Positions 53,903-64,000 of a DNA stretch of 64,000 nt are shown here, one piece after another; the first letter of the stretch is position 1, and each line of letters begins with the position of its first letter. Origin of the DNA: Oscillospiraceae bacterium (GTDB lineage Bacteria > Bacillota > Clostridia > Oscillospirales > SIG627); contig SVTV01000001.1 of NCBI GenBank assembly GCA_015063605.1, forward strand, positions 62,001 through 126,000, written 5' to 3'. Under the pieces are notes generated by a model. The model was not told the origin of the DNA. It saw only the letters and a list, made by a program, of their open reading frames with translations, and did no database searches. The position numbers were made by a program, and so were the translations under genes.

Positions 53903-55303
53903 ATGATAGATAGATGGATTGCAGAAGCAACAGAATGTGATTTTAAGGTTGCTTTAGAAGTTAAGAAACCGAAGAGCTGGTTGAAAACCGTCAGTGCTTT
54001 TGCTAACGGTATTGGCGGAACATTGTTTTTTGGCGTTGATGATAACAGAAATATTGTCGGTCTTTCAGATGTTCAGACTGATGCGGAAATAATCAGCAGA
54101 TTGATCAAGGAACGCATTACTCCTTTGCCGGAATTTGTGTTAACTCCCATGCAAGAGCAAGGGAAAGGATTACTTTCATTAACTGTATACTCAGGTTCGT
54201 CTACACCATATTTTTATAAAGCAGATGGTGTAACCGAAGCTTATGCTCGTATCGGCAATGAAAGTGTAGCTGCGCCGGATTATATGCTACGTGAACTTAT
54301 ATTGAAAGGGACGAATCGTACATTTGATTCTTTAATTACAGATAGCAGAAAAGCGGATTACAGCTTTACTTTACTTGAAGCAACATATTTAGAAAGAACA
54401 AAACTGCATTTCGAATCTACCGACTATGTTTCTTTCGGACTTTCCGACAAAGAGGGATATTTAACAAATGCAGGTCGCTTATTATCTGATCAGTATATCG
54501 TATATAATTCGAGAATCTTCTGTACGCGTTGGAACGGACTTGACAAGGGTTCCGTTTTTGACGATGCTGTGGATGACAAGGAATATGAGGGGAATTTAAT
54601 TTATTTGCTTAGAAGCGGAACAGAGTTTGTTCGTAATAACTCTAAGGTGCGTTTTGAAAAGAAAGAACAATATAGAGTTGATAAACCGGATTATTCCGAA
54701 CGAGCAATTACAGAAGCACTTGTGAATGCTCTTATTCATAGAGATTATTTGGTTATGGGTAGTGAAATTCATATTGATATTTATGATGATCGTTTGGAAA
54801 TTCATTCTCCCGGCGGTATGTATCGCGGTAAACCAATTCAGGAGTGCGGCTTGGATGAAATCGATTCCGTACGCCGTAATCCGGTGCTTGCTGATTTGTT
54901 TCATCGTATGAAATTTATGGAACGTCGTGGAAGCGGTATAAAAAAGATCCTGTATGAAACGGCAAAATTGCCCGGTTATGCGGAAGAAATGAAACCTGTG
55001 TTTCATTCAACACAATCATCTTTTTCTGTAACTCTGATGAATGTCAATTATTCAGCTCGGTTACAAAGTGACCAAGATAGTGACCGAGATAGTGACCAAG
55101 ATAGTGACCAAGATGTGACTAAAAAGATTTTAGATTTTTGTAGCATGGCACGAAGTAAACGAGAAATTTGTGAATATCTTGGATTTAATAATCTTACCTA
55201 TTTTACGCGCACATATTTGAATCCTTTACTTGAAGAAAAAGTTTTGCTCAGAACAGTTCCGGATAAACCAAGCAGTAAGAATCAAAAATATATACGTGCA
55301 TAG
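53903..55303 (+). CDS. AlbA_2 (Schlafen-like) domain regulator with HATPase-like domain
   Basis: 466 residues. AlbA_2/divergent AAA-4 domain (~5-125: TECDFKVALEVKKPKSWLKT; FANGIGGTLFFGVDD). HATPase_c_4 region (~265-370: ERAITEALVNALIHRDYL; EIHSPGGM; NPVLADLFHRMKFMERRGSG). A linker of DSDQDSDRDSDQDSDQD encoded by 12-bp tandem repeats (55068-55115) joins a C-terminal winged-helix-like domain (REICEYLGFNNLTYFTRTY). Family members act as DNA-binding regulators and some as anti-phage factors. Own promoter; remnant copy just upstream. Confidence 0.85.
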   Translation: MIDRWIAEATECDFKVALEVKKPKSWLKTVSAFANGIGGTLFFGVDDNRNIVGLSDVQTDAEIISRLIKERITPLPEFVLTPMQEQGKGLLSLTVYSGSSTPYFYKADGVTEAYARIGNESVAAPDYMLRELILKGTNRTFDSLITDSRKADYSFTLLEATYLERTKLHFESTDYVSFGLSDKEGYLTNAGRLLSDQYIVYNSRIFCTRWNGLDKGSVFDDAVDDKEYEGNLIYLLRSGTEFVRNNSKVRFEKKEQYRVDKPDYSERAITEALVNALIHRDYLVMGSEIHIDIYDDRLEIHSPGGMYRGKPIQECGLDEIDSVRRNPVLADLFHRMKFMERRGSGIKKILYETAKLPGYAEEMKPVFHSTQSSFSVTLMNVNYSARLQSDQDSDRDSDQDSDQDVTKKILDFCSMARSKREICEYLGFNNLTYFTRTYLNPLLEEKVLLRTVPDKPSSKNQKYIRA

Positions 55304-55570: not shown

Positions 55571-56389
55571 TTATAATTTTGATATTATATTTATATAACG
55601 CATTTTGTATTTTAGTATATACAGAGTTATTCCGAACAAAATATTTGATATACCGTACAAAGAAAGTGTTAAAACACCTAAAGTTCCCTTGATAATACAA
55701 AACCATATGACAAATTCTGATATTTCATTGTAAGAAGCAATACTTTTTTCAAGGTTGTTCTCAATGCAGGTTATGGTTTCTACGAAAAATTTGTATGCAC
55801 ATGTTGTAGCCGGAAAACACACGATCATTAAAAAGAACAGCGGTATTACAGCTATTCCCATTCCTCTTGATATTAGCTCGCCAAAAAAGAAAAATAACAT
55901 TCCTTCAACTATATAGGAAATTATTATTTGAACTTTTACCACTACGTTAATGAGCTTTACTCCTATTGATGGTAAAGGAGCTTGATCTGTATCAAAAGAT
56001 GGAATAATAGTCATCCAAAATCCTATGGATATTAATACATTAGGTAGATCGATAATTACAGTGAAAATTAAATTGATCAAATCTCCTACTTTAATAAATG
56101 AATTCGTTAAATTTATTGTTTTAAATAAGCTGAAAAGGGCTTCACCAAAAATAGCACCTTCTATGTAACATAATAGGCTGTTTCCATATATGCGAAAGAA
56201 GATAGAAAGAATAATGGAAATAGAGAATACAACGCTACATACCAATACCAATCGTGATTGTAAAAACTTTTTTTGTTCTGCGCAACAGAATTTTTCGTGC
56301 GTTGATTCAGATGATACGGTTGGTGTTCCGCTGAGATCGGTACAACTGTCGCTTTTGATAATAGTGTTATCACAATTATTACAAAACAT
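55571..56389 (-). CDS. Membrane protein with degenerate N-terminal zinc ribbon
   Basis: 272 residues from ATG 56389 (GGAG at 8 nt); frame is open further up but MFCNNCDN matches its paralogue. First pair CNNC is kept; the second pair of the ribbon reads CTDLS, so one Cys is lost. A long central region has five or six membrane helices. Overall similar to the gene at 57183-58067. Last gene of a four-gene minus-strand cluster. Function unknown. Confidence 0.7.
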   Translation of the reverse strand: MFCNNCDNTIIKSDSCTDLSGTPTVSSESTHEKFCCAEQKKFLQSRLVLVCSVVFSISIILSIFFRIYGNSLLCYIEGAIFGEALFSLFKTINLTNSFIKVGDLINLIFTVIIDLPNVLISIGFWMTIIPSFDTDQAPLPSIGVKLINVVVKVQIIISYIVEGMLFFFFGELISRGMGIAVIPLFFLMIVCFPATTCAYKFFVETITCIENNLEKSIASYNEISEFVIWFCIIKGTLGVLTLSLYGISNILFGITLYILKYKMRYINIISKL

Positions 56390-56435
56390 TATATACTCCT
56401 TGATTATGTTAGTGATGTGAGAAAAGTTGATTGCT

Positions 56436-56837
56436 TCAATTAAATATAGAAAACAATACAGAAAGAAATGAGAACGCAAACTTAATAATTACAATAATTA
56501 TCTTGAACATGATTATATGTAAGTGGATTATAAAAGACGCCATAACTAATTTTTTTAATAATCCCCAAAAACTGCGATCTATTTCACATAGTACTTCCTC
56601 AATCTTATTGAACTTTTCTATATCACCGCTTATACTAATTATGATGGATGCTCCGGGTAAAATAAATAACAACGAAGGTGCAAAGCCAAAAACAACTCTT
56701 ATGATATAGTTAATTATGGAAACATCTACTCCGAATTGTTTACCGTTGTAGTACGCGACAAGAATAAACAATATTAGACCGTATATGACTAATATATTTC
56801 CAATAATACGAAGAAGTGTGTGCTTAATATCAGTCAT
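56436..56837 (-). CDS. Small membrane protein
   Basis: About 133 residues from MTDIKHTLLRIIGN (ATG 56837); an ATG 17 codons upstream lacks better SD. Two to four hydrophobic segments (GNILVIYGLILFILVAYY; FGFAPSLLFILPGASIII; IIHLHIIMFKIIIVIIKF). No recognised domain. Four bases separate its start from the end of the upstream gene. Confidence 0.6.
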   Translation of the reverse strand: MTDIKHTLLRIIGNILVIYGLILFILVAYYNGKQFGVDVSIINYIIRVVFGFAPSLLFILPGASIIISISGDIEKFNKIEEVLCEIDRSFWGLLKKLVMASFIIHLHIIMFKIIIVIIKFAFSFLSVLFSIFN

Positions 56838-56841
56838 CTCT

Positions 56842-57168
56842 CTACCTACTTCTGAAATAAGCACAATATTTATGGTCTGGATCATCAATTTCTATTCCAT
56901 TATGCTTAGTGGTTGTACATTCGTTGGCCACAAGCCAAATACAATTGGAACAACAAATTTCAGATCCATATTTTCGTTTTACATTTTCAATTTCTTGGTA
57001 AAATGAAAGCCGGCTTGGTTTTTCTAAATAGGAAAAAAACCTTGAAAACAAAAATATAAATAAAACTATCCCTATAATTGCGAATAATATATCATCAATT
57101 TTTTCTCCCAATGCAGTCGAAGAGATGTCTGTTAATTTAAGCCATATATTAATTATCGCACGAGTCAT
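56842..57168 (-). CDS. Membrane protein with Cys-rich tail
   Basis: 108 residues; SD AAAGGAT. One membrane helix (ILFAIIGIVLFIFLFSRFF) then a soluble tail with ICCSNCIWLV, ECTTT and KYCAYFR: five Cys that could bind metal. 14 bp downstream of the zinc-ribbon gene. Unknown function. Confidence 0.65.
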   Translation of the reverse strand: MTRAIINIWLKLTDISSTALGEKIDDILFAIIGIVLFIFLFSRFFSYLEKPSRLSFYQEIENVKRKYGSEICCSNCIWLVANECTTTKHNGIEIDDPDHKYCAYFRSR

Positions 57169-57182
57169 TATTTTTTATCCTT

Positions 57183-58067
57183 TCATATCTGGGATTCATT
57201 GTCGGAGACGTTTTCAGGGTTGGTTACCATTTTATATGCAGTGAAATCTATAATTTTCAGTTCTTCTCTGAATTTATATAAAACGATACCCAATAGAATG
57301 CTACTTGCTCCCGTTAAAATATTTCCGAATAACCCGAATGTTCCTGTCACAAAGAAATATATTATGACGAAAGTGGAAATGTCTCTATGGCTGCTAAGAC
57401 CGCCTTCTATTGCGTGTTGTATAGAACCGAGAGTTTTCCCAAAACTTTTACAAATTGCAATAGTTATAGGTAATACTGCTAAAACTAAAATGAATTCTAC
57501 AGCCAAAAGAACACCCTGATATTCTATAGCAGGTTTGAGTATTATTATGATCAATAAAACTTCGAGAATAAAAACACCAACCATTTTTAGCGCAAATATA
57601 ACGCTAATCAGCGAAATACCACCTTTAGTGACAAATGGTTTGTCCGTATTTAAAGCTGAGATAACGGTTATCCATAATCCGATACAAATTAAGGCATTCG
57701 GCAGGTCTGAAAGTATTGTTGTAATAAGAGAATTGTCTATTCCCAAAAAGTAGTCCAGCATACTTACAGCACTTGTAATGTCTCTTAAAATATCGCCGAA
57801 AATACTGTACATAAAGTAATATAAAAAGCTTCCGGAAAGTATATTTCCGAATAATCCGTCTAAGCGTGATTCCAGAAAAGGACTTACAACGGCAAGCGAA
57901 AAAATTATAGCGGTTGCTATAAGTAAAGGGGATTTCGCAAATTTTTTGACTCTTAAATCAACATAGCTTTCTACAGTTCCCATGGTATTAGACTTAACAG
58001 GAGTTCCGCATATTGAACAATAACTTCCATCTTCGGCAATCGCGTTGCCGCATTTACTACAAAACAT
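57183..58067 (-). CDS. Zinc-ribbon membrane protein
   Basis: 294 residues; SD AAGGAGC. N-terminal zinc ribbon MFCSKCGNAIAEDGSYCSIC with intact C-x2-C pairs, a linker, then about six membrane helices (SPLLIATAIIFSLAVVSP; FVIIYFFVTGTFGLFG). First gene of the cluster with its own promoter at 58118-58146. Paralogue of 55571-56389. Function unknown. Confidence 0.75.
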   Translation of the reverse strand: MFCSKCGNAIAEDGSYCSICGTPVKSNTMGTVESYVDLRVKKFAKSPLLIATAIIFSLAVVSPFLESRLDGLFGNILSGSFLYYFMYSIFGDILRDITSAVSMLDYFLGIDNSLITTILSDLPNALICIGLWITVISALNTDKPFVTKGGISLISVIFALKMVGVFILEVLLIIIILKPAIEYQGVLLAVEFILVLAVLPITIAICKSFGKTLGSIQHAIEGGLSSHRDISTFVIIYFFVTGTFGLFGNILTGASSILLGIVLYKFREELKIIDFTAYKMVTNPENVSDNESQI

Positions 58068-58204: not shown

Positions 58205-59191
58205 CTATGCCGAAAGAATCGAAACGATATTTTTTATATCATCAGATGACAATAGATGTGTTCCTTGAGAACATATGTGATTTCTCATTTTATCTATCTC
58301 ATCTGCTCCGTAAATTGGTATATTACTATCGCTTCTATCACTTATTTGCATGTTCGCCTCGTTATTAATGAATAAAACACATCCACTTACCCAGGTACGA
58401 ATATGCCTGTCCTGCAAAATGTTAGATAAACACCAAATATGAGTACCTATTTGTTTCACGGGATTATAGAATTCTTTTGCTACACGTGTGTTGCCATAAA
58501 TAATATAATTATTGTAATCAGAAGAGTGTTTAAATTGTAACAAGTTTTTATCAGATGCATTCCCGACAATAATTCCTTTATGGTTTTTCACCTCTACTAT
58601 AAATACGCCTGTTGGACCAACAACAATGATATCTGTTTCACTATGTTTCTCGCCGTAAGATAGTTCACAGTTTGTGAAAATATGATACGTGTCCGGCAAC
58701 ACTTTAAAAATCGTTAATGCGGATTCTTCTCCTTCCATACCTGCTTTTAGTATGTCTATTTCATCTTTATGCATATATTCAGAATTGTCTCCTGGATAAT
58801 ACTCTCGCTTGTCAAATATTGAAATAATAACGTATATAGCCGCTGCGATCGGAATAGCACGACTAAAAATAAATTTCCAAAAACCGAAGATTGGAATACA
58901 CCTACAAATGAGGAATAAAGGAAACATTATTATTGCATATCTTTTGCGCTCGCTTTGCGGAACATGATCATACAGATAGTCTAAATCAGTAAACAATAAG
59001 AGAATATGATCTGTAGATATAATCAATGAAATGATTGTAATTACTCCACCAATAATAAGGTATTTAATCAGAACTCTTATGTTGTGGTGGAATACTTGCT
59101 CTTTCTTGTATTTAAGTTCAATTCTTGCTTTTTCCTCTAATAGACGGATTTTTTCTTGCAGGCTGTTTTGTCCATGGTGGATTATTGCCAT
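58205..59191 (-). CDS. NERD-domain (nuclease-related) membrane protein
   Basis: 328 residues from ATG 59191, preceded by AAAGGAGGT (59207-59199). N-terminal coiled segment (SLQEKIRLLEEKARIELKYK), membrane helices (IKYLIIGGVITIISLII; IIMFPLFLICRCIPIFGFW; AIPIAAAIYVIISIF), then a NERD domain (~150-260: GMEGEESALTIFKVLP; ETDIIVVGPTGVFIVEVKNH) with Asp, Glu and Lys spaced as in PD-(D/E)xK nucleases. Likely a membrane-tethered nuclease or DNA-binding factor. Its SD abuts a recombination site, and its main promoter appears to be invertible. Confidence 0.85.
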   Translation of the reverse strand: MAIIHHGQNSLQEKIRLLEEKARIELKYKKEQVFHHNIRVLIKYLIIGGVITIISLIISTDHILLLFTDLDYLYDHVPQSERKRYAIIMFPLFLICRCIPIFGFWKFIFSRAIPIAAAIYVIISIFDKREYYPGDNSEYMHKDEIDILKAGMEGEESALTIFKVLPDTYHIFTNCELSYGEKHSETDIIVVGPTGVFIVEVKNHKGIIVGNASDKNLLQFKHSSDYNNYIIYGNTRVAKEFYNPVKQIGTHIWCLSNILQDRHIRTWVSGCVLFINNEANMQISDRSDSNIPIYGADEIDKMRNHICSQGTHLLSSDDIKNIVSILSA

Positions 59192-59207
59192 GAACTGTAC
59201 CTCCTTT

Positions 59208-59365
59208 TTCAAATAGTGTACTTTTTGACAAAAGCCTCTCGAAGCAATAAATGGCGGATTTTTTCTTTTTTTGTCAACTTTTTTATTCAAAAGGGGTTGA
59301 ATTTACAATGGAATAATGCTATAATTAGATGTGTAAAGCAACTGTCAAAAAGTACACCTTTTGAC
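59208..59365. other. Candidate invertible promoter (inverton) with hix-like sites
   Basis: Left site 59208-59229 and right site 59344-59365 are 22 bp each and in inverted orientation; a 15-bp perfect core GTGTACTTTTTGACA is at 59216-59230, its complement at 59343-59357. Each reads as two imperfect 10-bp half sites around GT (for example GTCAAAAGGT-GT-ACTTTTTGAC). The ~114 bp between carry a strong + promoter. The left site touches the SD of the NERD gene and the right site follows the recombinase stop codon by 2 bp. Recombination itself is inferred. Confidence 0.75.
59297..59325 (+). promoter_or_regulatory. Promoter inside the invertible segment (points away from NERD gene)
   Basis: TTGAAT (59297-59302), 17 bp, TATAAT (59320-59325). 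In this orientation the transcript starts near 59332 and meets the hairpin GTCAAAA...TTTTGAC of the right site followed by TATTTTTTT (59344-59377), a terminator-like end. After inversion -35/-10 would map to 59276-59271/59253-59248 on the minus strand, reading into the NERD gene. Confidence 0.75.
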
Positions 59366-59367
59366 GG

Positions 59368-59994
<627 letters not shown>

Positions 59995-60054: not shown

Positions 60055-61671
60055 TTAATTCATATTATCGGCGGTATCGTGTGCGTTTTCGCCCGTGATA
60101 GAGCTTTCCTTTGACGTGTGCTCTCTTACTTCCCTTAAAAGCTTTTCCTTCTCGGGAATAAGACCTGCGGGAAGGCGTTCAAGATATTGCTCAAAGCTTA
60201 TCATACCGCTTTTCAGAAGATTGTCAAGAGTGCTTACGGCGGCAAGCTCGCTCCAATAGGAGGAAGCGCCCACATCTACACGGCAGTCGAAAATAAGGCG
60301 TCTCATGAGAGCATTATCGAGTGTGTCACTCTTGAGATCGCTGTCATTGCCGTTTCTGTAAAGCAGCATTCGTGCGCCGTCGTAATAGTTCATTATGAAT
60401 TCAAGCCATACCATACCGAGATGCGCCGCCGCATCGTAAAGAGCACGCTTCTGTGTTTCAAGAGGAATATTTGATGCCTGCCTCAATGCGATTATTGCGG
60501 AGGTGTTTTCGGGGGCGACGTTGCCGAGTGCGGCGTCGGTAGCTCCCATAAGCTCCTTTGTTACGGAAAGCGTCATGGATATCACATCGAGAAATCCCGA
60601 TTGCATTGTACCCGGATCGATACGCAGTACCGCATTTTCGGGCGGCCCGTTTACCGCTATCGCTTCGCCGACACCGTTAGTCCATTCGTCAATGAGGTTT
60701 TCATTGTACATTACCTTGGAGAATGACACATCTGTCATGTGCTTCATGACCATGGCGAAGGCTTTGTTTATATATATCTGATTTTCTGTAAGCCCCGTAG
60801 CCGCTGCCTGACCGTGGTAGGAGTTCTTTACGGGCTCCCAATTCATAAGGGTGACGGGATAAAGGGTAAGTCCCGTGTCTACCTCGGGACAGATCATTCC
60901 CGCTCTGACGCTTTTTCTGTAATGCACAGTTCCGTTTTTCTTGTAAAGCTTGATTATATATGTGCATTTTGTTCCCTTGAGCTCTTCGCTTGAAAGCTCG
61001 CCCGCTTCATCAAGGTTATCGTCATCGGGAGTGATGGCAGTTATCACCTCTCTTGAAGCTCCGTTTTCTCTTGCCTCACGGCGGAGTCTTGTCACAAGCT
61101 CTCTGCCCGAAAGCAAAATGTATGGCTGTTCCTCCGTATCGTTGGAGTTTACATCGCCGAAAAATACATTTGCACCGTCATAAAGCGTGGTAACGAAATC
61201 TCCCGAAAAGCCCTGACAAGTTCTTTTTGAAGGGTCCCAATATGTATAAAGGAAGCAATCTCCCGTTATGGCGGCATCGAAAATGCCTTTTGTGAAAAGG
61301 GCGCTTATCTTGTCCTTTTCAAATCTGTAATTGATGTAGTCCGAAAGAAGCTTGCAGGTCTTGTCCGTCTTTTCCTTGTCTGACAATGTTCCCATGGCGT
61401 AAAGCCCCTCCGCACTGTATTTTACGGAGATCTTCTGAGACATTATGGTGGAGACAAAATAGTTGATGACTCTTTTGAATACGTTGAATACGGGGGTGGG
61501 AAGGTCTGCCGATTCCACGCCGTACCATTGATCGCCTCTGTAAAAGCGTTCGTTTTTCTTGGCGTTTTCGTAGTACCCTATGGTGCGGTTATATTCCTTC
61601 CCCGCCTCGTAAAGCTCAAAATCCTCGCTCGTTTCCTTCTTTCTTCTGCGTTCGTCTGTGTGTTCTGTCAT
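60055..61671 (-). CDS. Orphan phage portal-like protein
   Basis: 538 residues from ATG 61671 with GAAAGGAAAT upstream (open frame extends 45 codons more without SD). Portal features: NERFYRGDQWYG, VFNVFKRVINYFVSTIMSQK, GQAAATGLTENQIYINKAF, MTLSVTKELMGATDAALGN, ASNIPLETQKRALYDAA, long alpha region and a polar tail. In phages it forms the dodecameric DNA gate. No terminase, capsid or tail genes are next to it; only the serine recombinase, so it is a phage remnant or a domesticated gene. Confidence 0.82.
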   Translation of the reverse strand: MTEHTDERRRKKETSEDFELYEAGKEYNRTIGYYENAKKNERFYRGDQWYGVESADLPTPVFNVFKRVINYFVSTIMSQKISVKYSAEGLYAMGTLSDKEKTDKTCKLLSDYINYRFEKDKISALFTKGIFDAAITGDCFLYTYWDPSKRTCQGFSGDFVTTLYDGANVFFGDVNSNDTEEQPYILLSGRELVTRLRREARENGASREVITAITPDDDNLDEAGELSSEELKGTKCTYIIKLYKKNGTVHYRKSVRAGMICPEVDTGLTLYPVTLMNWEPVKNSYHGQAAATGLTENQIYINKAFAMVMKHMTDVSFSKVMYNENLIDEWTNGVGEAIAVNGPPENAVLRIDPGTMQSGFLDVISMTLSVTKELMGATDAALGNVAPENTSAIIALRQASNIPLETQKRALYDAAAHLGMVWLEFIMNYYDGARMLLYRNGNDSDLKSDTLDNALMRRLIFDCRVDVGASSYWSELAAVSTLDNLLKSGMISFEQYLERLPAGLIPEKEKLLREVREHTSKESSITGENAHDTADNMN

Positions 61672-61862
61672 TTTTTGATATTTCCTTTCTCTCAAACTTC
61701 GTGTCTGAAAATTGATTTTCAGCCTCCGGTCTTTCCCGGTTCTCATGACGGATTTTATCACGGACAATGACTGACATTCAATGTCATAAAGTGCTTTGAG
61801 GGACAATTATTGAAAAATGGGAAATACAAATGCAAAATGAACGGTTTTCTTAAATTTTTTTC

Positions 61863-61891: not shown

Positions 61892-61951
61892 TAGCGTATG
61901 GGCATTCAGCGCATATGCGCTTGTGCAAAAAAGATGAAGGTAAGAAAAAAT

Positions 61952-62764
61952 ATGCGTATATACATAGTGACAGATATGGAAGGTTCTGCGGGAATAATCA
62001 ATTTTGCCGATTGGGTAACAGCCCGCGGAAAATATTACGAACAGGGCAAGATCTTTCTTACGGAAGAAATAAACGCATGCATCAGAGGATTTTGCGATGC
62101 ATGCGATGAAAAAGGCGAAAAGGTTGAGGAAATATTGGTGGTTGACGGCCACGGAGAAGGCGGCATAAATACAGAGCTTCTTGATTCCCGTGCAAGTCTT
62201 GCGAGTAATTGGCCCAGACCTCCTTATCCTTTCAGCGCCGATTCAAGATTTGATGTTGCGGCGAATATAGGACAGCACGCCAAGGCGGGAAGTGAATATT
62301 CACACATAACTCATACAGGATGGTTCAATGTTCTCGATATGAAGATAAACGGTATCTCCGTAGGCGAATACGGATGTACGGTATTCACCGCGGGAGAATT
62401 GGGCGTTCCCATGATATATGCTTCCGGTGAAAGAGCGTTTTGCAAGGAAGCGGCGGAGCTTACACCTTGGACTGTTACCACAGAGGTCAAGAGAGGCGTT
62501 ATGCCCGGCAAAGGCGACGAATGTACAACGGAGCAGTATATGAACAGAAATCTCGGTGCGGTTCATCTTTCGCCCATAAGAGCAAGGGAACTTATATACG
62601 AGGATTCAAAACGTGCAATGGAAATGTATCTTGAAGACAAAGCACAGTTTGAGGCGTATAAATTGGATGCTCCCTACAAATTGGAAAAATGGGACAGAAA
62701 CGGAAGCTGTCTGAAGCTTGAAAGTGATGTCTCGGTAACGGATCTTCTTAATAAGCAGTATTAA
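61952..62764 (+). CDS. M55 family D-aminopeptidase (DppA-like), first of three
   Basis: 270 residues from ATG 61952 (GAAGGTAA 9 nt upstream; matches the start of its paralogues). Zinc ligands and active-site motifs of DppA: VTDMEGSAGI (Asp, Glu), VDGHGEGGIN (His), GQHAKAGSEYSHITHTGW (His ligand and nucleophilic His), TAGELGVP (Glu). Cytoplasmic decamer in B. subtilis, cleaving D-Ala-D-Ala and similar D-peptides. Probably processes D-amino-acid peptides from cell walls. Confidence 0.9.
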   Translation: MRIYIVTDMEGSAGIINFADWVTARGKYYEQGKIFLTEEINACIRGFCDACDEKGEKVEEILVVDGHGEGGINTELLDSRASLASNWPRPPYPFSADSRFDVAANIGQHAKAGSEYSHITHTGWFNVLDMKINGISVGEYGCTVFTAGELGVPMIYASGERAFCKEAAELTPWTVTTEVKRGVMPGKGDECTTEQYMNRNLGAVHLSPIRARELIYEDSKRAMEMYLEDKAQFEAYKLDAPYKLEKWDRNGSCLKLESDVSVTDLLNKQY

Positions 62765-62801
62765 CAGTGAAATGTAAATTTATTATACGGAGGGTATAAA
62801 A

Positions 62802-63620
62802 ATGCGTATATACATAATGACAGATATGGAAGGCTCGGCGGGGATCATCAATTTTACCGATTGGGTCGAAAGAGAAGGAAAATATTATGAAACGGGCAAA
62901 AAGCTTGTTACGGAGGAGGTAAATGCCTGCATCAGAGGCTTTTACGATGCATGTGAGGAAAAGGGAGTGGAGATAGAAAACCTTCTCGTTTCCGACGGTC
63001 ACGGTGCGGGCGGTATCAACCACCTTGTGCTTGACGAGCGTGCCGATTACGTAAGAGGCTGGTCTGTGCCCGCTTATCCTCTTCATCTTGACAGAGGCTT
63101 TGATGTCGTTGCCGTTGTTGGACAGCATGCTATGGCGGGAACGGAATATGCGCATCTTGCCCATACTCAGAGCTTTTCTTATAAATGTGCTAAATTCAAC
63201 GGTATAGAATGCGGCGAATACGGTAATACGGTTCTCACGGCAGGTGAATTGGGCATTCCCGTAATATACGCCTCCGGCGACAGAGCTTTCACAAAGGAAG
63301 CGGCGGCTCTTACTCCCTGGACCGTTACTACCGAGGTAAAATACGGCGTTATCCCCGGAAAGGGTGACGAATGCGGCCCCGAGGCTTACGGCAAGAGAAA
63401 TCTCGGCGCGGTACATCTTTCCCCCGAAAGAGCAAGAGAGCTTATATATGAAGATGCAAAGAGAGCCATGACAATGTATATAGAAAATAAGGAAGCCTTC
63501 AAGGCGTACGAGCTCGATCCTCCCATCGTCAATGAGAGATGGTTTCGAACGGATGACGGAAAGGATATATACGTTAAGAAGGAAAGCAATATAAGCGTTG
63601 CCGATGTTCTCAATAAGTGA
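62802..63620 (+). CDS. M55 family D-aminopeptidase, second of three
   Basis: 272 residues; SD ACGGAGGG. Same motifs: MTDMEGSAGIINFTDWV, SDGHGAGGIN, GQHAMAGTEYAHLAHTQ, TAGELGIP. About two-thirds identical by eye to the preceding gene; 37 bp between them. Same operon. Confidence 0.92.
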   Translation: MRIYIMTDMEGSAGIINFTDWVEREGKYYETGKKLVTEEVNACIRGFYDACEEKGVEIENLLVSDGHGAGGINHLVLDERADYVRGWSVPAYPLHLDRGFDVVAVVGQHAMAGTEYAHLAHTQSFSYKCAKFNGIECGEYGNTVLTAGELGIPVIYASGDRAFTKEAAALTPWTVTTEVKYGVIPGKGDECGPEAYGKRNLGAVHLSPERARELIYEDAKRAMTMYIENKEAFKAYELDPPIVNERWFRTDDGKDIYVKKESNISVADVLNK

Positions 63621-63629
63621 TAATACGAT

Positions 63630-64000
63630 ATGAAAGTATATATAATGACCGATATTGAAGGTGCTGCGGGCGTTCTCGACTTTGTAAATTGGGCGCAGGC
63701 AGACGGAAAATATCACGAGGAAGCAAAAATGCTTCTCACCGAGGAGGTAAATGCGGCAATAGACGGCTTCTGTGCCGCAGGTGCCGATACGATCTTTGTA
63801 TGTGACGGTCACGGCCCCGGAGGAATAGACGTATCAAGACTTGATAAGAGAGCGTATTATTCGAGAGGATGGCACGGTGCACGTCCCTTCGGTCTTTCCG
63901 ATATGGATTTTGACTGTATGGCATTTGTGGGACAGCACGCAATGGCAGGCACTCCCTTTTCCCATCTTGCCCATACAGAAAATACACGCACCTTGTATTT
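63630..64000 (+). CDS. M55 family D-aminopeptidase, third of three (3' partial)
   Basis: Begins at ATG 63630, 9 bp after the previous stop, and runs out of the window. MTDIEGAAGVLDFVNWAQAD, CDGHGPGGID, GQHAMAGTPFSHLAHTEN: all ligands so far are kept. More diverged than the first two, which suggests a different peptide preference. Confidence 0.9.
   Translation, partial: MKVYIMTDIEGAAGVLDFVNWAQADGKYHEEAKMLLTEEVNAAIDGFCAAGADTIFVCDGHGPGGIDVSRLDKRAYYSRGWHGARPFGLSDMDFDCMAFVGQHAMAGTPFSHLAHTENTRTLY

Follow-up and report, generated by a model that had tools for sequence, protein, structure and literature searches.

In the window (the whole 64,000-nucleotide stretch of DNA that was analysed), genes for a small serine recombinase and for a NERD-domain membrane protein lie one behind the other on the minus strand, separated by a short intergenic cassette that is bounded by inverted repeats and contains a promoter (Table 1). 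The NERD domain (PF08378) scored 69.8 bits against a cut-off of 22.1, and the gene's ATG, at position 59191, lies 17 nt beyond the left repeat and is preceded by the Shine-Dalgarno sequence GGAGG at 59200-59204. Behind it on the same strand, positions 55571-58067 encode two zinc-ribbon-like multi-membrane-span proteins and two small membrane ORFs, none of which matched a Pfam family above cut-off. A pattern search of the minus strand found no terminator-like site between the NERD gene and the zinc-ribbon gene listed in Table 1, which possibly shares its operon. The surroundings also include a protein of the Schlafen AlbA_2 / HATPase_c_4 type on the plus strand (53903-55303), with weak PADLOC matches to argonaute-associated models, and three similar tandem ORFs on the plus strand (61898-64000) whose translations look by eye like D-aminopeptidases of the DppA/M55 type. 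Directly upstream of the recombinase gene on the minus strand is a lone phage portal gene (60055-61806; P22-type portal, phrog_156), perhaps a prophage remnant.

Table 1. Features of the window locus and of the sister cassettes found in the same genome
Feature	Position	Strand	Remarks
Zinc-ribbon multi-membrane-span protein behind the NERD gene	57183..58067	-	same strand as the NERD gene
NERD-domain membrane protein, presumed switch target	58205..59191	-	328 aa; PF08378 3.6e-19; hydrophobic segments by eye
Left (target-side) recombination site	59208..59229	.	TCAAATA-GTGTAC-TTTTTGACA; outer arm without terminator
Putative invertible segment	59230..59343	.	114 bp; homologous to the interiors of C42, C48 and C56 in the same genome
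Strong sigma-70-type promoter TTGAAT-17-TATAAT	59297..59325	+	TTGAAT at 59297, TATAAT at 59325; position conserved in relatives
Possible second, weaker promoter TTGACA-16-AATTAT	59321..59348	-	TTGACA at 59348, AATTAT at 59321; -35 inside right site
Terminator-like hairpin from right site, then T-run	59340..59377	+	hairpin 59340-59369; folding and pattern
Right (recombinase-side) recombination site	59344..59365	.	inverted copy; stem of the OFF-state terminator
Small serine recombinase, presumed invertase	59368..59985	-	205 aa; PF00239 1.6e-29; phrog_125 DNA invertase 1.7e-51
Sister cassette, C56	C56:26329-26493		likely target: YspA-type SLOG gene, ~400 nt from cassette
Sister cassette, C42	C42:2300-2465		likely target: 90-aa ORF, then WG-repeat lipoprotein
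Sister cassette, C48	C48:57585-57749		likely target: SPFH-zinc-ribbon / membrane / TIR-RCC1 operon

Sites, promoters and recombinase of the window locus

The two 22-bp sites are inverted relative to each other and share a perfect 15-bp core, GTGTACTTTTTGACA, which surrounds a non-palindromic GT within GTNNAC, and their arms (59209-59230/59343-59364; 22 nt) are 91% complementary. The 14-mer core occurs at these two places only in the 64-kb window, where 0.24 occurrences were expected, and after shuffling of 690-bp regions from relatives the best inverted pair of 18-mers matched at only 12-14 of 18 positions. The locus has the form of an inverton, with inverted repeats inside the 10-40 nt range around an intergenic promoter and a target gene that starts shortly past one site on the strand that the flipped promoter would read.

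With the NERD gene behind it, the strong promoter is directed at the recombinase gene's 3' end, an orientation designated OFF. On the transcript leaving in this direction, the right site forms a hairpin followed by a T-run (-12.5 kcal/mol, z -2.5) that is terminator-like by pattern as well; this T-run is complementary to an A-run at the recombinase gene's 3' end and may partly reflect lysine codons of the recombinase C-terminus. Folding of the left site read outward gave no terminator-like structure. The site pair with its coordinates and GT centre, the plus-strand promoter pointing away from the NERD gene, the hairpin built by the right site and the recombinase stop codon 2 bp from that site had all been described in an initial annotation and were confirmed at base level, while the coordinates bear out its estimate that a flip would start transcription ~50 nt upstream of the NERD start codon. 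Its statement that the minus strand has only poor promoters was too strong, as TTGACA-16-AATTAT is a 10/12 promoter match that faces the NERD gene in the OFF state. At the recombinase-side end of 7 of 30 OFF loci among the relatives described below, the recombination site doubles as the -35 element of such a second, target-facing promoter-like sequence.

The recombinase translation contains the motifs IRVSSTDQN and SIDRLGRN within a resolvase domain of the serine-nucleophile type. Comparison with solved structures gave 106 bits for Sin (2r0q), 77 for gamma-delta resolvase and ~64 for the DNA-invertase chains 4m6f/3uj3, so that by these scores the protein is not closer to Hin/Gin than to resolvases and the earlier label 'Hin-like' is imprecise; its best phage family is nevertheless the PHROG named DNA invertase (phrog_125). 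Plasmid relatives showed ~53% identity, and plasmid and phage records held no relative with at least 60% identity. The genome, which is 96% complete, contains only one recombinase of this kind.

Homologous cassettes in this genome and in relatives

Pattern searching of the genome identified three further site pairs with the same spacing, at C42, C48 and C56. All four cassettes are homologous (61–69% identity) and have promoter position and orientation in common, with the promoter facing away from the likely target in 4/4 cases; the genome's further near-matches to the site (e.g. at C34 and C31) were single and had no partner. The gene on the other side of the C48 cassette is divergent and may represent a second target. 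At C56 (L011:9100-9540), the gap between cassette and SLOG gene holds the 5' end of that gene in a second, truncated copy, together with other sequence, as if this target had been displaced from its cassette. One recombinase combined with several homologous cassettes elsewhere in the genome is the arrangement of an Mpi-type system and is also found in G006. The window recombinase is thus a likely master invertase for the four cassettes, and the earlier view of an enzyme dedicated to one switch is unsupported, given three further cassettes and a single recombinase. It is important to note that the genus is represented by this genome only and that comparisons are therefore between species.

Recombinase relatives are common in Clostridia, with the best 80 loci in GTDB contigs and further relatives in 72 of the 394 genomes sampled from the order. 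A confident inverted pair was present at 78 distinct loci among the 165 examined; no inverted repeat was seen at 35 of the 165, and 43 of the 121 others fell outside the count of confident, distinct pairs. The recombinase-cassette arrangement is accordingly not shown to be kept by every recombinase relative. In the 78 distinct relatives where this order recurs, the inverted pair mostly lies no more than 30 bp from the recombinase stop codon, and the gap is 100–150 bp in most cases. Where neighbouring genes were also inspected, in a subset of loci, the next gene downstream usually runs collinear and starts a short way past the second site. At 72% of the 78 loci a strong promoter lies immediately inside one of the sites, in comparison to 3% of shuffled interiors. 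Terminator-like structures on the outward transcript occurred on the recombinase side at 34/74 loci and on the target side at 1/74. Multiple cassettes recur as well, with four located away from the single recombinase of G006 and four in G482. At L316:2803-3201 (G022 C6), a fragment resembling the C-terminal part of the recombinase was observed behind the cassette, between switch and target.

Genes found behind the module in relatives form a diverse assortment in which enzymes and secreted or surface proteins are frequent; it includes BspA-type LRR, SLH, VWA pilin-tip, collagen-like and InlB-repeat surface proteins, glycosyltransferases, AMP-binding and FkbH enzymes and lipases, as well as some defence-like genes (restriction, methyltransferase, type IIG and other PADLOC-like genes). 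Three of the four G006 cassettes stand before LRR surface proteins. This diversity of targets argues for a general phase-variation module. An SPFH-zinc-ribbon protein was observed behind the switch in two unrelated genomes (L013:10175-14811 and L039:7119-12164, the latter as at C48), and at L013 genes for a membrane protein and for a TIR-RCC1 protein follow it. NERD domains occur widely in the order (221/394 genomes), and inspection by eye of the places listed gave only one close pair with a recombinase, in G431, where NERD lies upstream of the recombinase. As far as the places listed show, NERD does not appear to be a recurrent target.

Promoter orientation and its interpretation

Serine recombinases with a 2-bp overlap require matching central dinucleotides. 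The central dinucleotide of GTNNAC was the same at both sites in 73/73 loci, with six dinucleotide types across loci, an agreement somewhat inflated by the choice of similar pairs; the outer columns mismatch in up to half of the loci. A further sign of recombination came from L048 and L056, in related species, whose recombinase genes are collinear with 74% DNA identity and whose cassettes align better when one is inverted (134/184 positions identical, 73%) than in direct orientation (103/183, 56%), the promoter facing the target at one locus and the recombinase at the other. A search for same-locus pairs in opposite orientations across every locus retrieved, 80 recombinase loci of viral contigs among them, gave no other pair. 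L088 and L125 were rejected as a further pair, since their short inverted match lies outside the cassette and maps onto itself, and the ON-oriented locus L118 had no relative in its genus that matched across the whole locus. The comparison of relatives gives good support to the central proposal of the initial annotation, that of a promoter which can be inverted by a serine invertase encoded next to it and which at present points away from its target.

The distribution of orientations was strongly skewed. The promoter pointed away from the target (OFF) at 51 of the 56 loci with a strong promoter and toward it (ON) at 5/56 (L048, L079, L087, L118 and L128), for which the probability under a fair coin is ~1e-10 if loci are taken as independent. 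Cassettes without an adjacent recombinase all faced away in this genome (three), in G006 (four) and in G482 (three), with L320 and perhaps L317 as counter-examples among recombinase-free cassettes. Given this skew, switching may be rare or may have been lost in some strains; a cost of the ON state, a bias of the enzyme and induction are candidate reasons for OFF dominance. Many invertons were likewise nearly fixed in one orientation according to the hCom2 survey (PMC11892184).

We consider it highly probable, on the strength of comparative sequence analysis, that this segment functions as a promoter inverton and that the small serine recombinase next to it carries out the inversion. The enzyme would pair the inverted sites, cut at the central GT, rotate and rejoin the ends, and so flip the segment. 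When OFF, the promoter would fire toward the recombinase 3' end and its transcript would likely be halted within ~50 nt by the right-site hairpin and T-run. When ON, the flipped promoter would read into the left site, where the altered outer arm makes no terminator, and transcription would begin ~50 nt before the NERD start codon and possibly continue through the membrane-protein genes behind. The same enzyme probably flips the C48, C42 and C56 cassettes too, forming a small master-invertase regulon. The sequences document the sites, the promoter, the enzyme, the homology of the cassettes, their conservation and the orientation counts; inversion in this strain, action of the enzyme in trans and expression that follows orientation are what we infer.

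Alternatively, the promoter may be fixed, producing a terminated RNA of ~45 nt or interfering with the recombinase gene from its 3' end while the sites are bound for some other purpose. The orientation of 51/56 relatives toward the recombinase and the short, hairpin-ended form of such an RNA agree with this reading, but it leaves unexplained the second site, the matched dinucleotides, the ON relatives, the inverted pair L048/L056 and the cassettes that lack an adjacent recombinase, and we regard it as very improbable. Just as improbable is a non-autonomous, MITE-like mobile element moved by the recombinase with the inverted sites as its ends: four homologous cassettes in unlinked places, and four or more in G006 and G482, would fit such an element, but each cassette lies directly before a gene, its orientation is fixed, its promoter is conserved and its terminator is confined to one side. 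A switch between strong and weak expression deserves more weight, although it too is unlikely; here two opposed promoters with overlapping -10 elements would give the target weak or strong expression depending on orientation. The minus-strand promoter-like sequence of the window locus is in keeping with this, as are the 7/30 OFF relatives having a -10 of at least 5/6 correctly spaced from the site's own -35, in comparison to 3% of shuffles and 1/35 at the cassette's other end. Against it, the window -10 matches at only 4/6, and a TATAATA -10 yields TATTAT on the opposite strand by itself, so that the second promoter may be a by-product of the symmetric -10. It may otherwise be a source of basal expression: with a promoter-like match of this kind pointing at the target, the OFF state may be one of low expression and not of silence.

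The remaining alternatives concern what the inverton serves. NERD, TIR and SLOG domains are known from bacterial immune systems. Their presence among the targets in this genome is suggestive of stress or immunity and could be interpreted as phage-defence bet-hedging, in which a phase-variable immune regulon is ON in few cells, and the defence-like targets of some relatives are consistent with this. However, only the NERD domain among switch-controlled proteins here matched PADLOC, to PglW, weakly and in part (about residues 19-156 against a model of 1403 positions); no switch-controlled protein of this genome gave a full-length match, the SPFH, TIR-RCC1, WG-repeat and SLOG proteins had no PADLOC match at 0.001, and in many relatives surface proteins or enzymes stand behind the switch. 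The phage-defence role put forward in the initial annotation is therefore unsupported, and we hold it to be rather unlikely. A broader proposal, that widespread Clostridial master serine invertases keep unlinked promoters coordinately OFF, with site-built terminators as insulation and ON reached rarely or on cue, and that NERD, SPFH/TIR and SLOG here form a coordinated stress or immune regulon, is speculative and appears doubtful as a whole.

Relation to known systems

The promoter inverton favoured here is a known mechanism, as the invertible promoter, Hin and Mpi are already described. A search of the open literature, with supplements and the founding inverton paper outside it, returned no description of a GTNNAC-cored serine family in Clostridia, and searches there for NERD with an invertible promoter, for the site letters and for Firmicutes invertons gave no matching description. 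The site-derived terminator, the collinear recombinase-switch-target layout and the strong OFF bias were not found described in that literature. The 160-bp signature of GTNNAC-cored inverted sites, promoter and one-sided terminator is tied to one recombinase group, and phase-variable genes should therefore be predictable from sequence in uncultured gut and rumen Clostridia. The OFF bias, which extends to cassettes far from the recombinase, raises the question of whether ON is rare, costly or induced.

Hin uses a Fis-bound recombinational enhancer. The Hin/Gin systems (PMC3798978) share with the present one a small serine recombinase, two inverted sites and a 2-bp central overlap, but the recombinase here is nearer Sin and the segment is only ~114 bp. 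Sin and beta-type recombinases of Gram-positive plasmids, of which Sin is the best solved relative, act on plasmid res/six sites with accessory subsites, whereas here two short sites surround a promoter; beta recombinase has been reported to catalyse both resolution and inversion (in references cited by PMC8493755). The msa promoter of Lactiplantibacillus plantarum resembles the present locus as an invertible promoter region in which the native, low-expression orientation predominates in wild type, and its inversion removes a stem-loop and raises expression (PMC8493755); unlike here, that work describes a single locus and identifies no recombinase. Groups 139 and 145 among the Clostridial invertons of the hCom2 survey are likewise promoter or gene invertons of gut Clostridia with a recombinase close by; they are linked there to tyrosine recombinases (PMC11892184).

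In Bacteroides fragilis the master invertase Mpi acts on 13 invertible regions (PMC4747536), and as in that system one serine recombinase is presumed here to invert several unlinked promoter segments that set downstream genes ON or OFF. This likeness is one of arrangement, and action of the enzyme in trans is presumed here. In contrast to Mpi, the present system belongs to Clostridia, its recombinase, switch and target are collinear, the recombinase-side site forms a terminator and the targets are other than capsule genes.
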